Part shown: in pieces, positions 9,693-28,110 of the stretch
How the letters are laid out: every line of letters begins with the position of its first letter
How positions within the stretch are numbered: position 1 is the first letter of the stretch
Source: Terriglobia bacterium
GTDB taxonomy: Bacteria > Acidobacteriota > Terriglobia > Terriglobales > Acidobacteriaceae
Reading direction: 5' to 3'
Length of the DNA stretch: 64,000 nt
Assembly (NCBI GenBank): GCA_020072815.1
Contig: JAIQGE010000011.1
Location: forward strand, 1 to 64,000
Translations under genes and position numbers: made by a program
The notes under the pieces: generated by a model
The model's database searches: none
What the model saw: the letters and a program-made list of their open reading frames with translations, nothing else
Told to the model about the DNA's origin: nothing

Positions 9693-11513
9693 CTATTTGA
9701 TAGTCAGGGTGATTACCTGGGCGCCGCTTACCACGTAACCCACCGGCGTAGAAGACTCACGCACCGCGGATTCGGCGAACACCATCATCTCCTGCGTGGC
9801 CCGCATCCCGTCCATCACGTTCATCACGGAAAGCGGCATGGCCGGCATCACTTTGTCTTCCACCGTGGCTTGCGGGCTGGCTTCCAGCAAAGAAACGTAG
9901 AGCCGGTCATTGCGATGCTCGTTGTTGAGCTGTTCGATGGTGGAGTTCAAGTCCAAACGCTTGGCGAATGCCGGGAAGGCCCGGCGTGAGCGTTCCAGAG
10001 TGTCAGCGTCGCTCACCAGGATGCGCAGCGTGCCTTTGGGCAACGAAGCCGGCAGGTGCACCGGAATGCGGCGGACAATGCGCTCGCCGCGGTAAGGACG
10101 CAGCACAGCTTCAATGGTGATTTCGTCTCCAGCCCGCGCTTCAGTCAGATCAGTGCGGGCAATTTCCAGCACGGCGGAACGGCGGTCATGCTCCAGGCTA
10201 AAATCCAATGACACGCCGCCGACTTTCGGCGCCTGGAACGGGTTGTCATAGATCCGTCCAAAGCGCTCGCCCAGGGCCATGGCCACGGCGAAGGCCGTCG
10301 GCATGTTGTCTGCGGGAGAAAACAAGTTGGCCAGGCGAACGTCCGGATACCCGGTCACATGGATGCTTCCGTTCATGCGATAAGTGGTTTCTTCGCTGTA
10401 CTGGTTCATGCCCATTAGCGAGTTATAAACCGTGGCCATCATCATGAGCGGTGTCAGCCGCGCACTGTTGAGCACTTCATAGTGGAATTCCTTGGCGCCG
10501 CTATCGCCGTGGATGGTGAGGGTGATGGGGATCATCTGCGCGTCGCGATGAAAGCGCCCCAGGATTCCTGTCCGGCGGTCTTGCACAAACGCGCCTACCG
10601 GCTCGGTGGTATTGATGATCTTGAACGAACCCAGCGGCGTGGCCAGGGTAGTGATCACGCTGGCTTTGGTCATGGGCATTTCCACCATGCCATATTGCGT
10701 AATGGGATGGCCGCAGGCCAGGAGATGCTCGGCGTCCATGTAAGTGACGGTGCAGGTGGCCGATACGTCCATGTCGCCTTTGACCAGGACCGCGCTCACG
10801 GCGGAACCGGCTTCCATGGGTTCCGGCTGCTTTTCATTGCTGGCCGAACCCGCGCCCATCACTGGGACCACTCCCGCCGCGGCGAACTGGGGCGCAAACA
10901 GCTTGATGGTGGCTTCGTCGAACCCGTTGAACACGATCGGCGCGCCAATCGGCTGGAGGATTTGCGCGTAGCTCTGCAAGTCGTATCCGCCGCTGCCGCC
11001 CGCGGAGACGGCGCTCGGGCTGCCGGCCTTCTTCGTGTTGTCCGGCCGCGGGGCTGAACCTGCGGGTGGAATGCTCCGGTCAAATTCGTTGATCTCCAGC
11101 ATCTGCTGGATGGGCGTAACCCCGGCGATAGGCTCCTTGCTGAAGGTCCCCATCCGGTAGGCGATGGCCCCCAGCAGCTTGCCATCAATGTAAACCGGGC
11201 TGCCGCTCATCCCCGAAACTACTCCGGTGTATTCGGGTTTCTCTCCATGCAGGCGCACCAGCACCACGTCATTCTTGGGGCCGTTCATGTTGCGGAGCAG
11301 ACCCAAAACCTCCACGTCCATGGCCTCCGGGCGCACGCCTTCAAACACCGTGTACGCCACGCCTTTCATGCCGGGACGGACTTCATCCACGGTCATGAAC
11401 TTGATTTGGCTGGTTGGAATCTTGCCGGCGGCGCTGGCGTTGGGGGCGGTTTGGGGCGATGCCAGGCCGGAAAAGACGAAGAGAGCGACGAGTAACACAA
11501 CAGCTTTTTTCAT
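9693..11513 (-). CDS. SpoIVB-type (family S55) secreted serine protease-like protein
   Basis: A 606-residue exported protein. A signal peptide covers about residues 1-20. The S55 core follows: MTVDEVRPGMKGVAYTVF, then YTGVVSGMSGSPVYIDG with the candidate nucleophile Ser104, and a later ACGHPI block. The remaining C-terminal 300 residues are a beta-rich extension seen in non-sporulating relatives. Family knowledge indicates a PDZ-regulated serine protease, but the substrate here is unknown. It shares a divergent promoter region with the VWA gene at 11659 and precedes the propeller gene. Confidence 0.85.
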   Translation of the reverse strand: MKKAVVLLVALFVFSGLASPQTAPNASAAGKIPTSQIKFMTVDEVRPGMKGVAYTVFEGVRPEAMDVEVLGLLRNMNGPKNDVVLVRLHGEKPEYTGVVSGMSGSPVYIDGKLLGAIAYRMGTFSKEPIAGVTPIQQMLEINEFDRSIPPAGSAPRPDNTKKAGSPSAVSAGGSGGYDLQSYAQILQPIGAPIVFNGFDEATIKLFAPQFAAAGVVPVMGAGSASNEKQPEPMEAGSAVSAVLVKGDMDVSATCTVTYMDAEHLLACGHPITQYGMVEMPMTKASVITTLATPLGSFKIINTTEPVGAFVQDRRTGILGRFHRDAQMIPITLTIHGDSGAKEFHYEVLNSARLTPLMMMATVYNSLMGMNQYSEETTYRMNGSIHVTGYPDVRLANLFSPADNMPTAFAVAMALGERFGRIYDNPFQAPKVGGVSLDFSLEHDRRSAVLEIARTDLTEARAGDEITIEAVLRPYRGERIVRRIPVHLPASLPKGTLRILVSDADTLERSRRAFPAFAKRLDLNSTIEQLNNEHRNDRLYVSLLEASPQATVEDKVMPAMPLSVMNVMDGMRATQEMMVFAESAVRESSTPVGYVVSGAQVITLTIK

Positions 11514-23653: not shown

Positions 23654-25645
23654 ATGAGAACGTCAACCAACTTGTCACGCAATTACATCTTTTCATCGCT
23701 GAGAGAGCCGCTGATCGTCGCCCTCTCTTTCGCGCTGGCAACTTTGTTCGTCGCCGCGCTTACCGCTCATGCACAGGAACCAGCGCCAGCGCCGGCAGCA
23801 CTCGGCTGGGTCGTCATCCCGGTGGACGAATACCAGCATCTTCGCGCCCGGGCGTTTCCCGCTGAGCGCGAACCTGAGCCGCCTCCGGTGGAAGCCACGC
23901 TCACTCGCGTGGACTATGACCTGCGCATCGTCGGCGACCTGGCTACCGGCCGCGCCAGCCTCACCGTGGACGTGATCAAAGACGGCTGGGTGCGTGTGGC
24001 CATTCCCAGCGGCCTGCTGGTGCGCGAAGCCCGGCTTGACGGCAAACTGGTCTCGCTGGTCCCCGGCCCGGCGGGCAAAAGCGGTAGCCAGCTATCCGCC
24101 ATGCTGTCTCACACCGGACGCGCCCTTCTGTTGCTGGACATCGCGCTGCCGGTGAATGCTTCCGCCGGCGAGGAGAGCATCTCGCTGCCTTCCACAACTT
24201 CCGGCGTCACGCGCGCTTCCATTCAGCTTCCCCGCCAGGGCGTGGACGTGAAGCTGAGTGGCGGCCTGCTGGCGGAAAAACAAGAAACCGGCGCGGAGAG
24301 CAAGTGGCTGGCGTACGCGCGCGGCGGCGAACCGCTCACCCTCACATGGCGCCGCAAAATGGACGACCATCGCCAGACCCAGCCGCTGCGTCTGCGCGGA
24401 TCGTTGACTGAATTGCTCGGGCTGGGCGAAGACGCAACGTCGGTCTACGCCGAAGTCAGCCTGGAGATTCTGCAAGGCGCCGCTAAAGAAGTTCGCATAC
24501 AGCTTCCCGACAAAGTCACCGTCAACCAGGTCACCGGGGCCATGGTCGCCGACTGGGAAATCAAGTCCGGCGAACTTGCCGTCACATTCCTCGAGCCGGT
24601 CGAACAAAGCGCGCGCTTTGTCATCACCGGAGAAACGCGCACGCCGCGCGAAGGCAAGATCGAAGTCCCGCTGATGCGCCTGCTCAACGCGGAGCGCGAT
24701 TCCGGCGGCATTGCCGTGGAAGTCCTGGGCGCGGGCGAGATCAAAGACCAGAAGTTGCAAGGGTTGGAGAACGTGGACGCCTCCGACCTGGGCGAGATGG
24801 TGGCCGGCCGCCAGTCGCCGTCCCTGGTGGCGTTCCGCTTCCGCTCCGGCGACGCCAAGTCCGCGCGCTCGCTCACCGTGAACGTGGCCCGCTACGAACA
24901 GCAGGCTGTGATGATGGCCAACATTGAAGAGGCGCGTTATCAGGTGCTGCTGAGCAATGAAGGCAAGACCCTGGTGCAGGCGCGGTACGCCGTCCGCAAC
25001 AACCAGCGGAATTTCCTGAAGCTCACACTGCCCGCGGGCGCAACGATTTGGAGCGCGTCGCTTGCCGGAAGGCCAGTCCGTCCCGGGCAAGCGCCGGACG
25101 GCGGCCTGCTCCTGCCACTCGAAAAATCCCGCGCCGGCGACGACGCTCCGGTCTTCGCGGTGGAAGTGCTGTATCTAGTCCGCGAAAGCAAGTGGACGGA
25201 CCGCGGCAAGGTCCGCATGGCGCTGCCTGCGCTGGATCTCCCTATTTCGCGCACCGGCCTGGTGCTCTATCACTCGCCGCAGTTTCATGTGACGTCAGAG
25301 CCGGGTCCGTTCCGCGTGGAGCCGTACACCAGACCGATGTCGGTGGCGTTCCAGCCGGTGGGCGTCGGCAGCGGAATTGATCTGCATTACAAGGAATACG
25401 GTTCTGAGTTCGGAAAAACGAAAGGCGAGATTAACGACAAGCCCGTATCCGCCCCCGCCAGGGCTCTGCTCGACGACTACCGCGCCAAATTTGCCGGCGG
25501 CAAAGAAGCCAAAGTCTTGCCGGTGCATGTCTCGTTTCCGGCTTTTGGCTCGTCAGTGTTTCTGGTTTCCGAACTGACGGCGGAGAACCAGGCCCCAGCC
25601 ATTGAACTCAGCTATCAGCGCGACAAGAAGGACGGTGGAAGATGA
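23654..25645 (+). CDS. Exported beta-rich protein, first of a tandem paralogous pair
   Basis: A 663-residue exported protein with a signal peptide of about 42 residues ending in LTAHAQ. The mature protein is almost entirely beta-strand with no cysteine-rich or catalytic motif. It matches the next gene's product over nearly its full length: VIPVDEYQHL against LTLGEYDRL, FLKLTLPAGATIWSA against FLKVDLPAGATILSA, ALPALDLPIS against ALPSMDVPIS, and VLPVHVSFPAFGSSVF against VLPVQVDVPRAGNSYL. The ATG at 23654 is chosen for the signal peptide. Its stop overlaps the next start by four bases. A structural or adhesive envelope role is inferred only from export and fold type. Confidence 0.75.
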   Translation: MRTSTNLSRNYIFSSLREPLIVALSFALATLFVAALTAHAQEPAPAPAALGWVVIPVDEYQHLRARAFPAEREPEPPPVEATLTRVDYDLRIVGDLATGRASLTVDVIKDGWVRVAIPSGLLVREARLDGKLVSLVPGPAGKSGSQLSAMLSHTGRALLLLDIALPVNASAGEESISLPSTTSGVTRASIQLPRQGVDVKLSGGLLAEKQETGAESKWLAYARGGEPLTLTWRRKMDDHRQTQPLRLRGSLTELLGLGEDATSVYAEVSLEILQGAAKEVRIQLPDKVTVNQVTGAMVADWEIKSGELAVTFLEPVEQSARFVITGETRTPREGKIEVPLMRLLNAERDSGGIAVEVLGAGEIKDQKLQGLENVDASDLGEMVAGRQSPSLVAFRFRSGDAKSARSLTVNVARYEQQAVMMANIEEARYQVLLSNEGKTLVQARYAVRNNQRNFLKLTLPAGATIWSASLAGRPVRPGQAPDGGLLLPLEKSRAGDDAPVFAVEVLYLVRESKWTDRGKVRMALPALDLPISRTGLVLYHSPQFHVTSEPGPFRVEPYTRPMSVAFQPVGVGSGIDLHYKEYGSEFGKTKGEINDKPVSAPARALLDDYRAKFAGGKEAKVLPVHVSFPAFGSSVFLVSELTAENQAPAIELSYQRDKKDGGR

Positions 25646-28110
25646 ACTTCACAAAGACACTCAACAACGCCATGAACACTCTCAAGCAATTCATAGTTTT
25701 CACCATGATCTTCTCTGTGGTCGCTTCAACGCTCTTCGCTTCAACGACGGCTTCGGCTGCGGAGAAGGCTCCGGCGCCCGCTCTGCCGCTGCCCGCCACC
25801 GGCAACGTCACGCTTACGCTGGGAGAGTATGACCGCCTGGTGGACCTGGCGAACAAGGCTGCGCGCAAACATGACGTGCCGCCCGTTTCGTACACGCTCA
25901 AGCGCGCTGATCTAAAGCTGCACGTGGCCGAGGGATCTGTTCTGGGCTCGGTGCAACTCGATGGAGAGATCTTCGGCAAAGGGTCAGCCAAAGTCCCGCT
26001 CACCAGCGGCATGACCATCCTGAATGCGAAGCAGGAAGGCCCCAACGGGAAAGAAGGAAAGACGCTGCCGCTTCTCCAGGAAGGCTCCACGGCAATGGCA
26101 ATCCTGAGTGGCCCGGCGGAATTTTCCGTCGCACTCGATGCCGGCATGCCAATGACCATTGAAGCCGGACGCGCGCAATTCAGCTTGCCGGTTCCCGCGG
26201 CGGGCAGCGTGCGGCTGTCGCTGGTCATCCCCGGCGACCACACCAACGTGCGCATCAGCCCCGGCCTGATCACCAACCGCACTTCCGCCAACGGCCAGAC
26301 CACGGTGGAAGCCGCGCTGGTCCCGGGACAGCCGGCCAGCATCTGGTGGCAGACGCGCGAACTCGCCGCGCCGGTGGTGCCCAAGGAAGTCCGCTTCCTT
26401 TCTGACGTGAAGACGCTGGTCACCGTCACCGAATCTGACCTGCGCCTGGCCGCCCTGGCCGACGTGACTGTGGTGCAAGGTGATCCCACTGAATTCAAGA
26501 TCACCGTGCCCACCGACTACGAAATCACTGACGTCAGCGGCGCCACCGTGGAAGGCAGCGAGATCACGGGCGACGAACTCATCGTCAAGCTCAACGCCAG
26601 CGCGCCGCGCTCCCACCAGTTCCTCATCACCATGGAGAAGCCGCTGGCCGGCGTCGCCAAATTGGAAACTCCATTTCTGAATTTCAAAGATACGCAGCGT
26701 GAAACCGGCGAGGTCCTGGTGGAAGGCACCGGAGCTATGGAGCTGACGTCCACCGAAGGCGGGAGCCTGAAGCGCATGGACGTGAAAGAAGCCAACCCGT
26801 ATCTGCGATCGCTGGCGCGCTATCCGATGCACGCAGCGTTCCGCTTCCATCGCCAGCCCAATGAAGTTCCCAAGCTGGCGCTGGCGTGGGTCCGCTTCCC
26901 GGACAGCTCGGTGCTGGCCGCGGTGGCCGAGCGCGCCGTGGTCACCACGCTGGTCACCACGGAAGGCCGTTCGCTCACCGAAGTCAAGCTCACGGTGAAG
27001 AACCAGGCACAGCCGTTCCTGAAAGTTGACTTGCCCGCGGGGGCGACGATTCTTTCCGCCGAAGTGGCCGGCGAGAAAGTGAAACCGGTGCAGGGAACGG
27101 ACGGCAATCGCGTGCCCCTGTTGCGCGCCGGCTTCCGTCCCACGGGCGCTTACGAAGTCACGTTTGTGTTCATGCACTCGGGCGCGCCGTTCGCCAAAAA
27201 AGGCGGATCAGAACTGGCGCTGCCCAGCATGGACGTCCCCATCAGCCTGCTGCAGTGGGAAGTGTTTCTGCCGGAGCAGTACAAGGTGAAGGACTTTAGC
27301 GGCGACGCCATCGCCATGAACCTGCTGCAACGAGGGAGCGTAGTCAGCGTGGAGACCAAGTCTGGAACTGGCAGTTTCGGAACGCCCACGTCCGCGTTTG
27401 CCGGCATCCAGGAAAATGAAGGTCTCGACAACCTGGCCGTCTTTGTTCCCGGCGTCGTTCCCGGCGTCGAGGAAGCACGGCCTGACGGCGGAGCGAGTGC
27501 AGCGGGTTACCTGACCGGCGTGGTTACCGACCAGCAAGGAGCGGTCATTTCCGGAGCGCAAGTGAAAGTGATAAACCAGGACACCGGCGTGGTCTACACC
27601 GCCACCACGGACAGCTCGGGCTCCTGGAGGATCGCCAGCGTCCGCTCCGGCAGAGTCAAAGTTGAAATCTCGGCGCGCTATTTCAAGACGGCCACGTACG
27701 CCGCGTTGGATTACAACGCCAGTCGCGGCGGCTCGATGGGCGTGACCAAGCTCGTCGTCGGCGCAACCACCACCACGGTGGAAGTCACCGCGGAAGCGCC
27801 GATGATTGACACGTCGCAGTCGCAAGTCACCCAAACGTTCAGCGGAAACGCCTTGACCACCTATGCCGGAGTGAACTCAAGTGGTTCGGGCGGCCGCAGC
27901 AGCGACAAGAAAAAAGACCGCGACGCCAGGAAACAACTGGTGGAGCAACAGAACCAGGCGTCGGCCAACGTCTTCAACCTGCAAAAGAAAGTATCCGGCG
28001 TGCTGCCGGTGCAGGTGGACGTTCCGCGGGCGGGCAATTCGTATCTCTTTGCCCGCGCCCTGGTGCTGGATGAGGAGACCAAGCTGACGTTTAACTACAG
28101 GACGAAATAA
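25642..28110 (+). CDS. Exported beta-rich protein with inserted carboxypeptidase-regulatory/TonB-plug-like segment
   Basis: An 822-residue exported protein (signal peptide ending near TASA), paralogous to the preceding gene's product. Residues about 615-750 have no counterpart there. This segment reads as a CarboxypepD_reg beta-sandwich (YLTGVVTDQQGAVISGAQV, TDSSGSWRI) followed by VEVTAEAPMIDTSQSQVTQ, the sequence type that leads into the plug of Oar-like TonB-dependent receptors. No TonB box or barrel follows; after a Lys/Gln-rich linker the shared C-terminal block (VLPVQVDVPRAG) resumes. Translational coupling with the first gene suggests the two products act together at the envelope. Confidence 0.8.
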   Translation: MNFTKTLNNAMNTLKQFIVFTMIFSVVASTLFASTTASAAEKAPAPALPLPATGNVTLTLGEYDRLVDLANKAARKHDVPPVSYTLKRADLKLHVAEGSVLGSVQLDGEIFGKGSAKVPLTSGMTILNAKQEGPNGKEGKTLPLLQEGSTAMAILSGPAEFSVALDAGMPMTIEAGRAQFSLPVPAAGSVRLSLVIPGDHTNVRISPGLITNRTSANGQTTVEAALVPGQPASIWWQTRELAAPVVPKEVRFLSDVKTLVTVTESDLRLAALADVTVVQGDPTEFKITVPTDYEITDVSGATVEGSEITGDELIVKLNASAPRSHQFLITMEKPLAGVAKLETPFLNFKDTQRETGEVLVEGTGAMELTSTEGGSLKRMDVKEANPYLRSLARYPMHAAFRFHRQPNEVPKLALAWVRFPDSSVLAAVAERAVVTTLVTTEGRSLTEVKLTVKNQAQPFLKVDLPAGATILSAEVAGEKVKPVQGTDGNRVPLLRAGFRPTGAYEVTFVFMHSGAPFAKKGGSELALPSMDVPISLLQWEVFLPEQYKVKDFSGDAIAMNLLQRGSVVSVETKSGTGSFGTPTSAFAGIQENEGLDNLAVFVPGVVPGVEEARPDGGASAAGYLTGVVTDQQGAVISGAQVKVINQDTGVVYTATTDSSGSWRIASVRSGRVKVEISARYFKTATYAALDYNASRGGSMGVTKLVVGATTTTVEVTAEAPMIDTSQSQVTQTFSGNALTTYAGVNSSGSGGRSSDKKKDRDARKQLVEQQNQASANVFNLQKKVSGVLPVQVDVPRAGNSYLFARALVLDEETKLTFNYRTK

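Follow-up and report, generated by a model that had tools for sequence, protein, structure and literature searches.

A pair of exported acidobacterial paralogues, one with the N-terminal module of an Oar-type transporter: a candidate TonB client that has no receptor barrel

INTRODUCTION

The TonB box is the handle by which the TonB motor normally grips outer-membrane import channels, and the Ton motor acts on outer-membrane receptors and on the bacteriocins and substrates that pass through them. What, then, might such a box be doing in an exported protein that has no receptor barrel? The question is raised by two overlapping genes, here A and B, in the window, by which we mean the whole 64 000-nucleotide stretch of acidobacterial DNA that was analysed. 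Oar has an N-terminal extension (NTE) of the PF13620 type and a TonB box that matters for secretion of PopC (PMC6434023), and in SusC the NTE stands immediately ahead of the TonB box VDEVVV (PMC7782687). Mutation has shown that the box is needed for the function of both proteins through TonB (PMC6434023, PMC7782687).

RESULTS

The gene pair

Gene A (23654..25645, + strand; ATG at 23654, stop ending at 25645) encodes an exported protein of 663 aa, with a signal peptide, a tandem beta-sandwich core (residues ~80-555), a variable linker (~560-600) and a C-terminal block (~615-660). Gene B (25642..28110, + strand; ATG at 25642, stop ending at 28110) encodes its exported paralogue of 822 aa, which has an Oar-type module in the linker. 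The genes overlap by 4 bases in a stop/start ATGA (25642..25645, + strand), and a Sec-type signal sequence can be read directly at the start of both proteins. BLASTP aligns A and B with 29% identity over 558 aa (E 1e-52). Profile-profile comparison of an A alignment of 35 rows with a B alignment of 37 rows gave probability 100 over 633 columns and E 8e-151, a value somewhat flattered because each alignment included the other protein as its last row. Since this alignment covers both sides of the B insert, the C-terminal block with its LPV(H/Q)V motif (in B at 27988..28107, + strand; SGVLPVQVDVPRAGNSYLFARALVLDEETKLTFNYRTK) is common to the two proteins. The first-pass annotation, which had two exported proteins of 663 and 822 residues overlapping by four bases and matching along their length, thus holds in each of these points, C-terminal block included. 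It knew of no described system with this layout, and indeed the A/B core has no match among curated Pfam and NCBIfam models; the pair is an unnamed Acidobacteriota family.

Distribution and neighbourhood

A profile search found relatives of A in 27 of 396 Acidobacteriota genomes. A scan of a genome collection with B as query yielded 48 loci, almost all of which carry the label of an Acidobacteriota MAG (Terriglobia, gp1, gp2, gp4, Bryobacterales and Vicinamibacteria); five of the scan matches were left out as pair loci, and the 43 named loci were analysed. The exact 4-base overlap is present in 39 of the 41 named loci that have both genes (33 ATGA, 6 GTGA), as expected of the coupled, co-encoded pair that had been proposed. 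It had also been proposed to look for neighbours that are always co-encoded, and none is conserved among the 43 loci. The largest neighbour cluster is found in nine of the 43 and is limited to one clade, so we rejected the assignment of function through conserved neighbours. Neither tonB nor exbBD was seen in linkage with the pair, and no sigma or anti-sigma gene was found beside it in the window. Because the exact overlap is kept in changing surroundings, A and B form a unit that stands alone and is probably translationally coupled.

Some observations were made along the way. One contig labelled Betaproteobacteria (L093) bears a typical acidobacterial A-B pair and probably comes from a mislabelled or contaminated MAG. 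A distant genome has three family genes in tandem (L077:2847-9176), with a box-like motif (EVITVTADSPIIDISSSTV) only in the middle gene. Elsewhere in the window, the minus strand at 9693-11513 encodes a 606-aa protein with a weak match (1.4e-7) to SpoIVB-type peptidase S55, in what is apparently a Gram-negative genome.

Predicted structure

AlphaFold single-chain models of A (pLDDT 81.3) and B (pLDDT 75.7) are tandem beta sandwiches, with a small C-terminal hairpin in B; at pTM 0.42 and 0.33, from alignments of 35 and 37 rows, respectively, their domain arrangement is not trustworthy. The fold of the N-terminal domain of M1 aminopeptidases and of ribophorin I is present in the models (Z 13-15). 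Residues 74-236 of A match LTA4H with Z 13.8 and rmsd 3.3 over 159 residues, its first domain matches the N-terminal domains of M1 aminopeptidases with Z 13-14 and rmsd ~3 over ~155 residues, and yeast Ost1 (ribophorin I) matches A across several domains with Z 15.0 over 308 residues and rmsd 23.5. The same families lead a Foldseek search with B. The likeness is one of fold only, at ~10% identity; OST is eukaryotic, and no peptidase Pfam match at E ≤ 1, and so no sign of the catalytic M1 domain, was seen in A or B.

The inserted sandwich of B (residues 622-704) is predicted to fold by itself (pLDDT ~90), and the stretches flanking it (564-617 and 709-757) have pLDDT <50 and are predicted to be disordered. 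The first-pass annotation placed the insert inside the shared fold. It does lie ahead of the common C-terminal block; in the model, it sits in the hypervariable linker that joins the beta core to the C-terminal hairpin, and not in a folded domain.

The Oar-type module of B

The linker of B between beta core and C-terminal block has ~200 residues and contains a CarboxypepD_reg sandwich, corresponding to the NTE of Oar-type receptors, together with its Oar sequel. The sandwich (27505..27753, + strand; residues 622-704) matches PF13620 at residues 624-691 (3.7e-15), internally and not at the N-terminus. It is followed by a TonB-box-like motif, TTTTVEVTAEAPM (27769..27807, + strand; residues 710-722), in a predicted disordered region, and then by the start of a plug (IDTSQSQVTQTFSGNALTTYAGV; 27808..27876, + strand) that is truncated and gives way to low-complexity linker. 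Residues 614-744 are 45-55% identical to the N-termini of Oar-like receptors from the same genus. The carboxypeptidase-regulatory sandwich and plug-leading sequence noted at first pass are therefore a real Oar-type N-terminal module. There is no match to a complete plug domain in B (PF07715; fragments only) and none to the 22-stranded barrel (PF00593, TonB_dep_Rec), which agrees with the earlier statement that B has no barrel.

We compared the B sandwiches with those of sampled Oars in a tree of 105 columns, where with modest support the former make up nearly one clade (two label changes). The sandwich of the window's B is 53% identical to an Oar; its identity to other B proteins, measured differently, has a median of 35%. 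From these identities B proteins seemed to have taken the sandwich from resident Oars more than once, against which the near-single clade speaks. A single origin remains compatible with the tree and the module looks old and kept; because the B sandwiches are nearly one clade, we prefer a single old capture of the NTE, and we read NTE and box as having come together in it and been kept under selection for the box.

Retention and specificity of the box

A TonB-box scoring matrix was built from 19 acidobacterial Oar boxes, and whole linkers were scanned with it for the best site in each. The motif in the window's B (TTTVEVTAEAP, within TTTTVEVTAEAPM), identified by its sequence alone, scores 33.2, and none of 500 shuffles scores as high. 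A score with P ≤ 0.01 was reached by 34 of 43 B linkers (37 with P ≤ 0.05) and by one of 38 A linkers (three with P ≤ 0.05), counts that are not independent, the linkers being from related species. The median for B linkers, 16.4, compares with 11.0 at the 99th percentile of 150-aa background windows and is reached by only 3 of 676 predicted proteins in 800 kb of the window's own genome. Median identity is 21% in the linker against 66% in the core and C-terminus, and the box columns (ETVEV) reach 2.8-4.0 bits, a figure aligned on the best site per linker, so that scan and column values alike are partly selected.

B proteins that have no sandwich keep box-like motifs, METVQVMAES in L108 (P 0.05), TQTVTVEAS in L109 (P 0.09) and AETLEVTRAA in L122 (P 0.006), these cases being few in number, each of them weak, and possibly the result of no more than two events. 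Both sandwich and box are lost from the B of L112, and the B linker of L102 has no convincing box match. The box of the window's B is accessible by prediction (pLDDT <50) and next to the well-folded sandwich. Judging from these alignments and scores, the constrained part of the B insert is the TonB-box motif.

In the window's own genome, an NTE query gave 30 matches; when shorter frames among them were inspected, NTE and box without a barrel were seen only in B and in a protein of 270 aa. A plug query gave 17 matches, comprising 15 in frames >1000 aa, one in B and one in an anti-sigma/DUF4349 locus. The inserted segment does not recur at random positions in many unrelated genes; the 270-aa protein (on contig C4) has the module without a barrel, and the anti-sigma linker of the DUF4349 locus (on contig C17) has plug and box pieces. 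The NTE/box module is thus rare outside receptors and not private to B. The C4 protein (C4:65932-66741; L203:9933-10742) has a cysteine-rich N-terminus, one likely membrane helix and CarboxypepD_reg followed by ETRVEIEVSAEAPA, and is another barrel-less carrier of NTE and TonB box.

Plug and post-plug pieces

The first-pass annotation did not list a plug-body fragment, NEGLDNLAVFVPGV, ahead of the B sandwich (27379..27465, + strand; AGIQENEGLDNLAVFVPGV region), N-terminal of it and so permuted relative to the order in Oar. Against the plug of the query, the genus-type Oar, it has 83% identity across 29 aa (E 7e-9), and its score of 109 compares with a shuffled mean of 44, with none of 100 shuffles as high. 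The variable linker of A (25322..25450, + strand) has EYGSEFGKTKGEIN, which weakly resembles the Oar post-plug sequence YGPEYGRNAGSVVN; as an Oar piece it was rejected, not being significant alone (17 of 100 shuffles as high). In the orthologous A linker of L090 the corresponding YGPEYGKNKG is equalled by one of 100 shuffles.

A profile of 32 Oar N-termini gave 46 matches at E<0.001 in 81 linkers, and none at that threshold in shuffled or reversed linkers. Most of the matches are the NTE/box module, and the others derive from different plug regions and from the residues just after the plug. In L089, a relative of the window, B has the same plug-body piece and A has the next section of the plug (GFSVNGLRGRNNDQQIDG); the B of L090 runs through profile position 191, and the B of L112 has a post-plug piece only. 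That post-plug piece (L112 B; genome G350) finds its closest resemblance, across the 40 genomes searched, in Oars of its own genus. Only part of the lineages have plug pieces, which vary from clade to clade and may be later arrivals than the NTE. A significant A piece is present in four genomes (L089, L117, L110 and L127), where it lies downstream of the B piece in Oar coordinates and does not overlap it. Being confined to a small number of related lineages, this pattern of a plug split over A and B is suggestive only.

Distant relatives and sigma-factor context

Among the distant family members are some longer ones, encoded by single genes, that have C-terminal hydrophobic helices and directly follow a gene for a large anti-sigma-like protein. 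An ECF sigma gene lies ahead of the latter in L084, L078 and L081. The linker of the anti-sigma-like protein contains TonB_C in L084 (7e-18) and L086 (1.8e-11), and in L081 the NTE and nearly the whole plug (Oar-profile positions 3-217, E 4e-22); its VWA-like C-terminal part is weakly supported (VWA_3, 0.003 in L081). These loci (L084:1671-8155, L086:2090-7802, L081:773-7500 and L078:6105-12999) look like a TonB-linked sigma circuit. That TonB-related modules recur beside the A/B family raises our confidence in TonB as the partner that matters, and the window's pair is without those neighbours.

The own-genome C17 locus (~91-93.3 kb; L202:9056-11332) has frames for an ECF sigma factor, a zf-HC2 anti-sigma factor and DUF4349. 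The stretch between the anti-sigma and DUF4349 parts, across which the reading frame is broken, contains two box-like motifs and a post-plug piece of Oar type (KKFGTEYGRNAGS, E 8e-6). The same genome has 27 TonB_C domains over the curated cut-off, seemingly many TonB-like proteins.

DISCUSSION

We propose that B is a barrel-less TonB client and that A and B form a TonB-pulled envelope complex, a reading to which we give a probability of about one half. A and B, co-translated, exported and homologous multi-beta-sandwich proteins, would act as one envelope complex, with the disordered tail of B displaying two elements of an Oar-type transporter, its NTE sandwich and its TonB box. The C-terminal domain of TonB would pair with the exposed box, and ExbBD and the proton gradient would drive TonB to pull on B; the pull might either remodel the A-B assembly or move or release something that it holds. 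TonB is our first-choice partner because the constrained part of the insert is a TonB-box motif, of the kind needed through TonB in Oar and SusC. Contact with an Oar channel, as suggested by the first-pass annotation, is possible, and the conserved element points first to TonB.

The plug pieces suggest a different use of the tails, by which those of A and B together would mimic an Oar plug and dock in or thread through an Oar-type barrel, A-B being cargo, adaptor or lid. Linkers of both proteins do contain pieces of plug or post-plug sequence in addition to NTE and box, with the A piece downstream of the B piece and clear of it in the four genomes named above; the 83% identity of the window's piece to a genus-type plug and the closeness of the G350 piece to own-genus Oars fit as well, and Myxococcus Oar does secrete a protein (PMC6434023). 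Most B proteins, however, have little plug past the box and most A linkers have none, and the fragments are short, permuted and predicted to be disordered, so that we find such docking unlikely. The sigma-factor context would instead have box and plug mimic sense, or compete for, the engagement of TonB within an envelope-stress or sigma-factor circuit. The distant members that follow an anti-sigma-like gene with TonB_C (L084, L086) or NTE and plug (L081) in its linker argue for this, as does the post-plug piece in the own-genome zf-HC2 anti-sigma/DUF4349 locus. Yet the window's pair has no linked sigma or anti-sigma gene, the 43 named loci have no conserved neighbour, and a cytoplasmic domain is absent from A and B; a signalling role seems to us quite improbable.

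It might also be that pieces of the numerous Oar genes simply recombine into permissive linkers and drift there without a role. Linkers that are hypervariable and of low complexity, fragments that are short, permuted and clade-specific, and the pieces in other own-genome linkers (C17, C4) are what such drift would leave. It fits poorly with a box retained from Terriglobia to Vicinamibacteria and also in the forms that lack the sandwich, and with an NTE tree close to a single old origin. Moreover, non-receptor proteins with the sandwich at C1:792-794 kb of the own genome are absent from the box scores of at least 9.1, so the sandwich alone does not bring a box. We consider neutral capture a rather poor bet.

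The proposal of a TonB client can be extended, doubtfully, to a native, two-protein, non-receptor envelope machine powered by TonB, in which the N-terminal module of a TonB-dependent transporter was moved onto a paralogous pair whose tails go on gaining Oar plug pieces, as a split pseudo-plug presented to TonB and/or to Oar barrels. As part of this same doubtful extension, sigma-factor regulators of the phylum would also keep gaining plug pieces from resident Oars. The more limited proposal, that B is a barrel-less client, already suggests a so far undescribed TonB-powered envelope device. If it is true, a conserved native protein that has the NTE and TonB box of a receptor yet lacks the barrel would represent a Ton client of a new kind, one that would bear on the role of the NTE by itself and on the many TonB_C proteins of this acidobacterium. 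In turn, the plug pieces that recur in hypervariable linkers might be a natural record of the plug segments that make contacts.

Comparison with known systems

A partial, narrow-term search of the literature, weak evidence in itself, found no barrel-less TonB-box or orphan-plug proteins. Oar-type TonB-dependent transporters (Myxococcus xanthus Oar and acidobacterial Oar-like receptors) have in common with B an NTE (PF13620) followed by a TonB box. They have the module at the N-terminus and a 22-strand barrel, whereas B, an unrelated beta-sandwich protein, has it internally and close to the C-terminus, with no barrel and with a plug that is absent or fragmentary. Group-B colicins and TonB-dependent pyocins are also non-receptor proteins with a TonB box in a disordered region (ETLTV in colicin M; PMC11658791). 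They serve as exported weapons, have toxic domains and carry the box at the N-terminus, unlike B, which is native and conserved, has a partner and shows no sign of a toxic domain. FusB and ferredoxin in Pectobacterium provide a precedent for a TonB-like protein acting directly on a non-receptor (PMC7593965), there a foreign substrate without an NTE/TonB-box module. Neither the colicins (PMC11658791) nor the ferredoxin of the FusB system (PMC7593965) are native, conserved and NTE-bearing, as B is.
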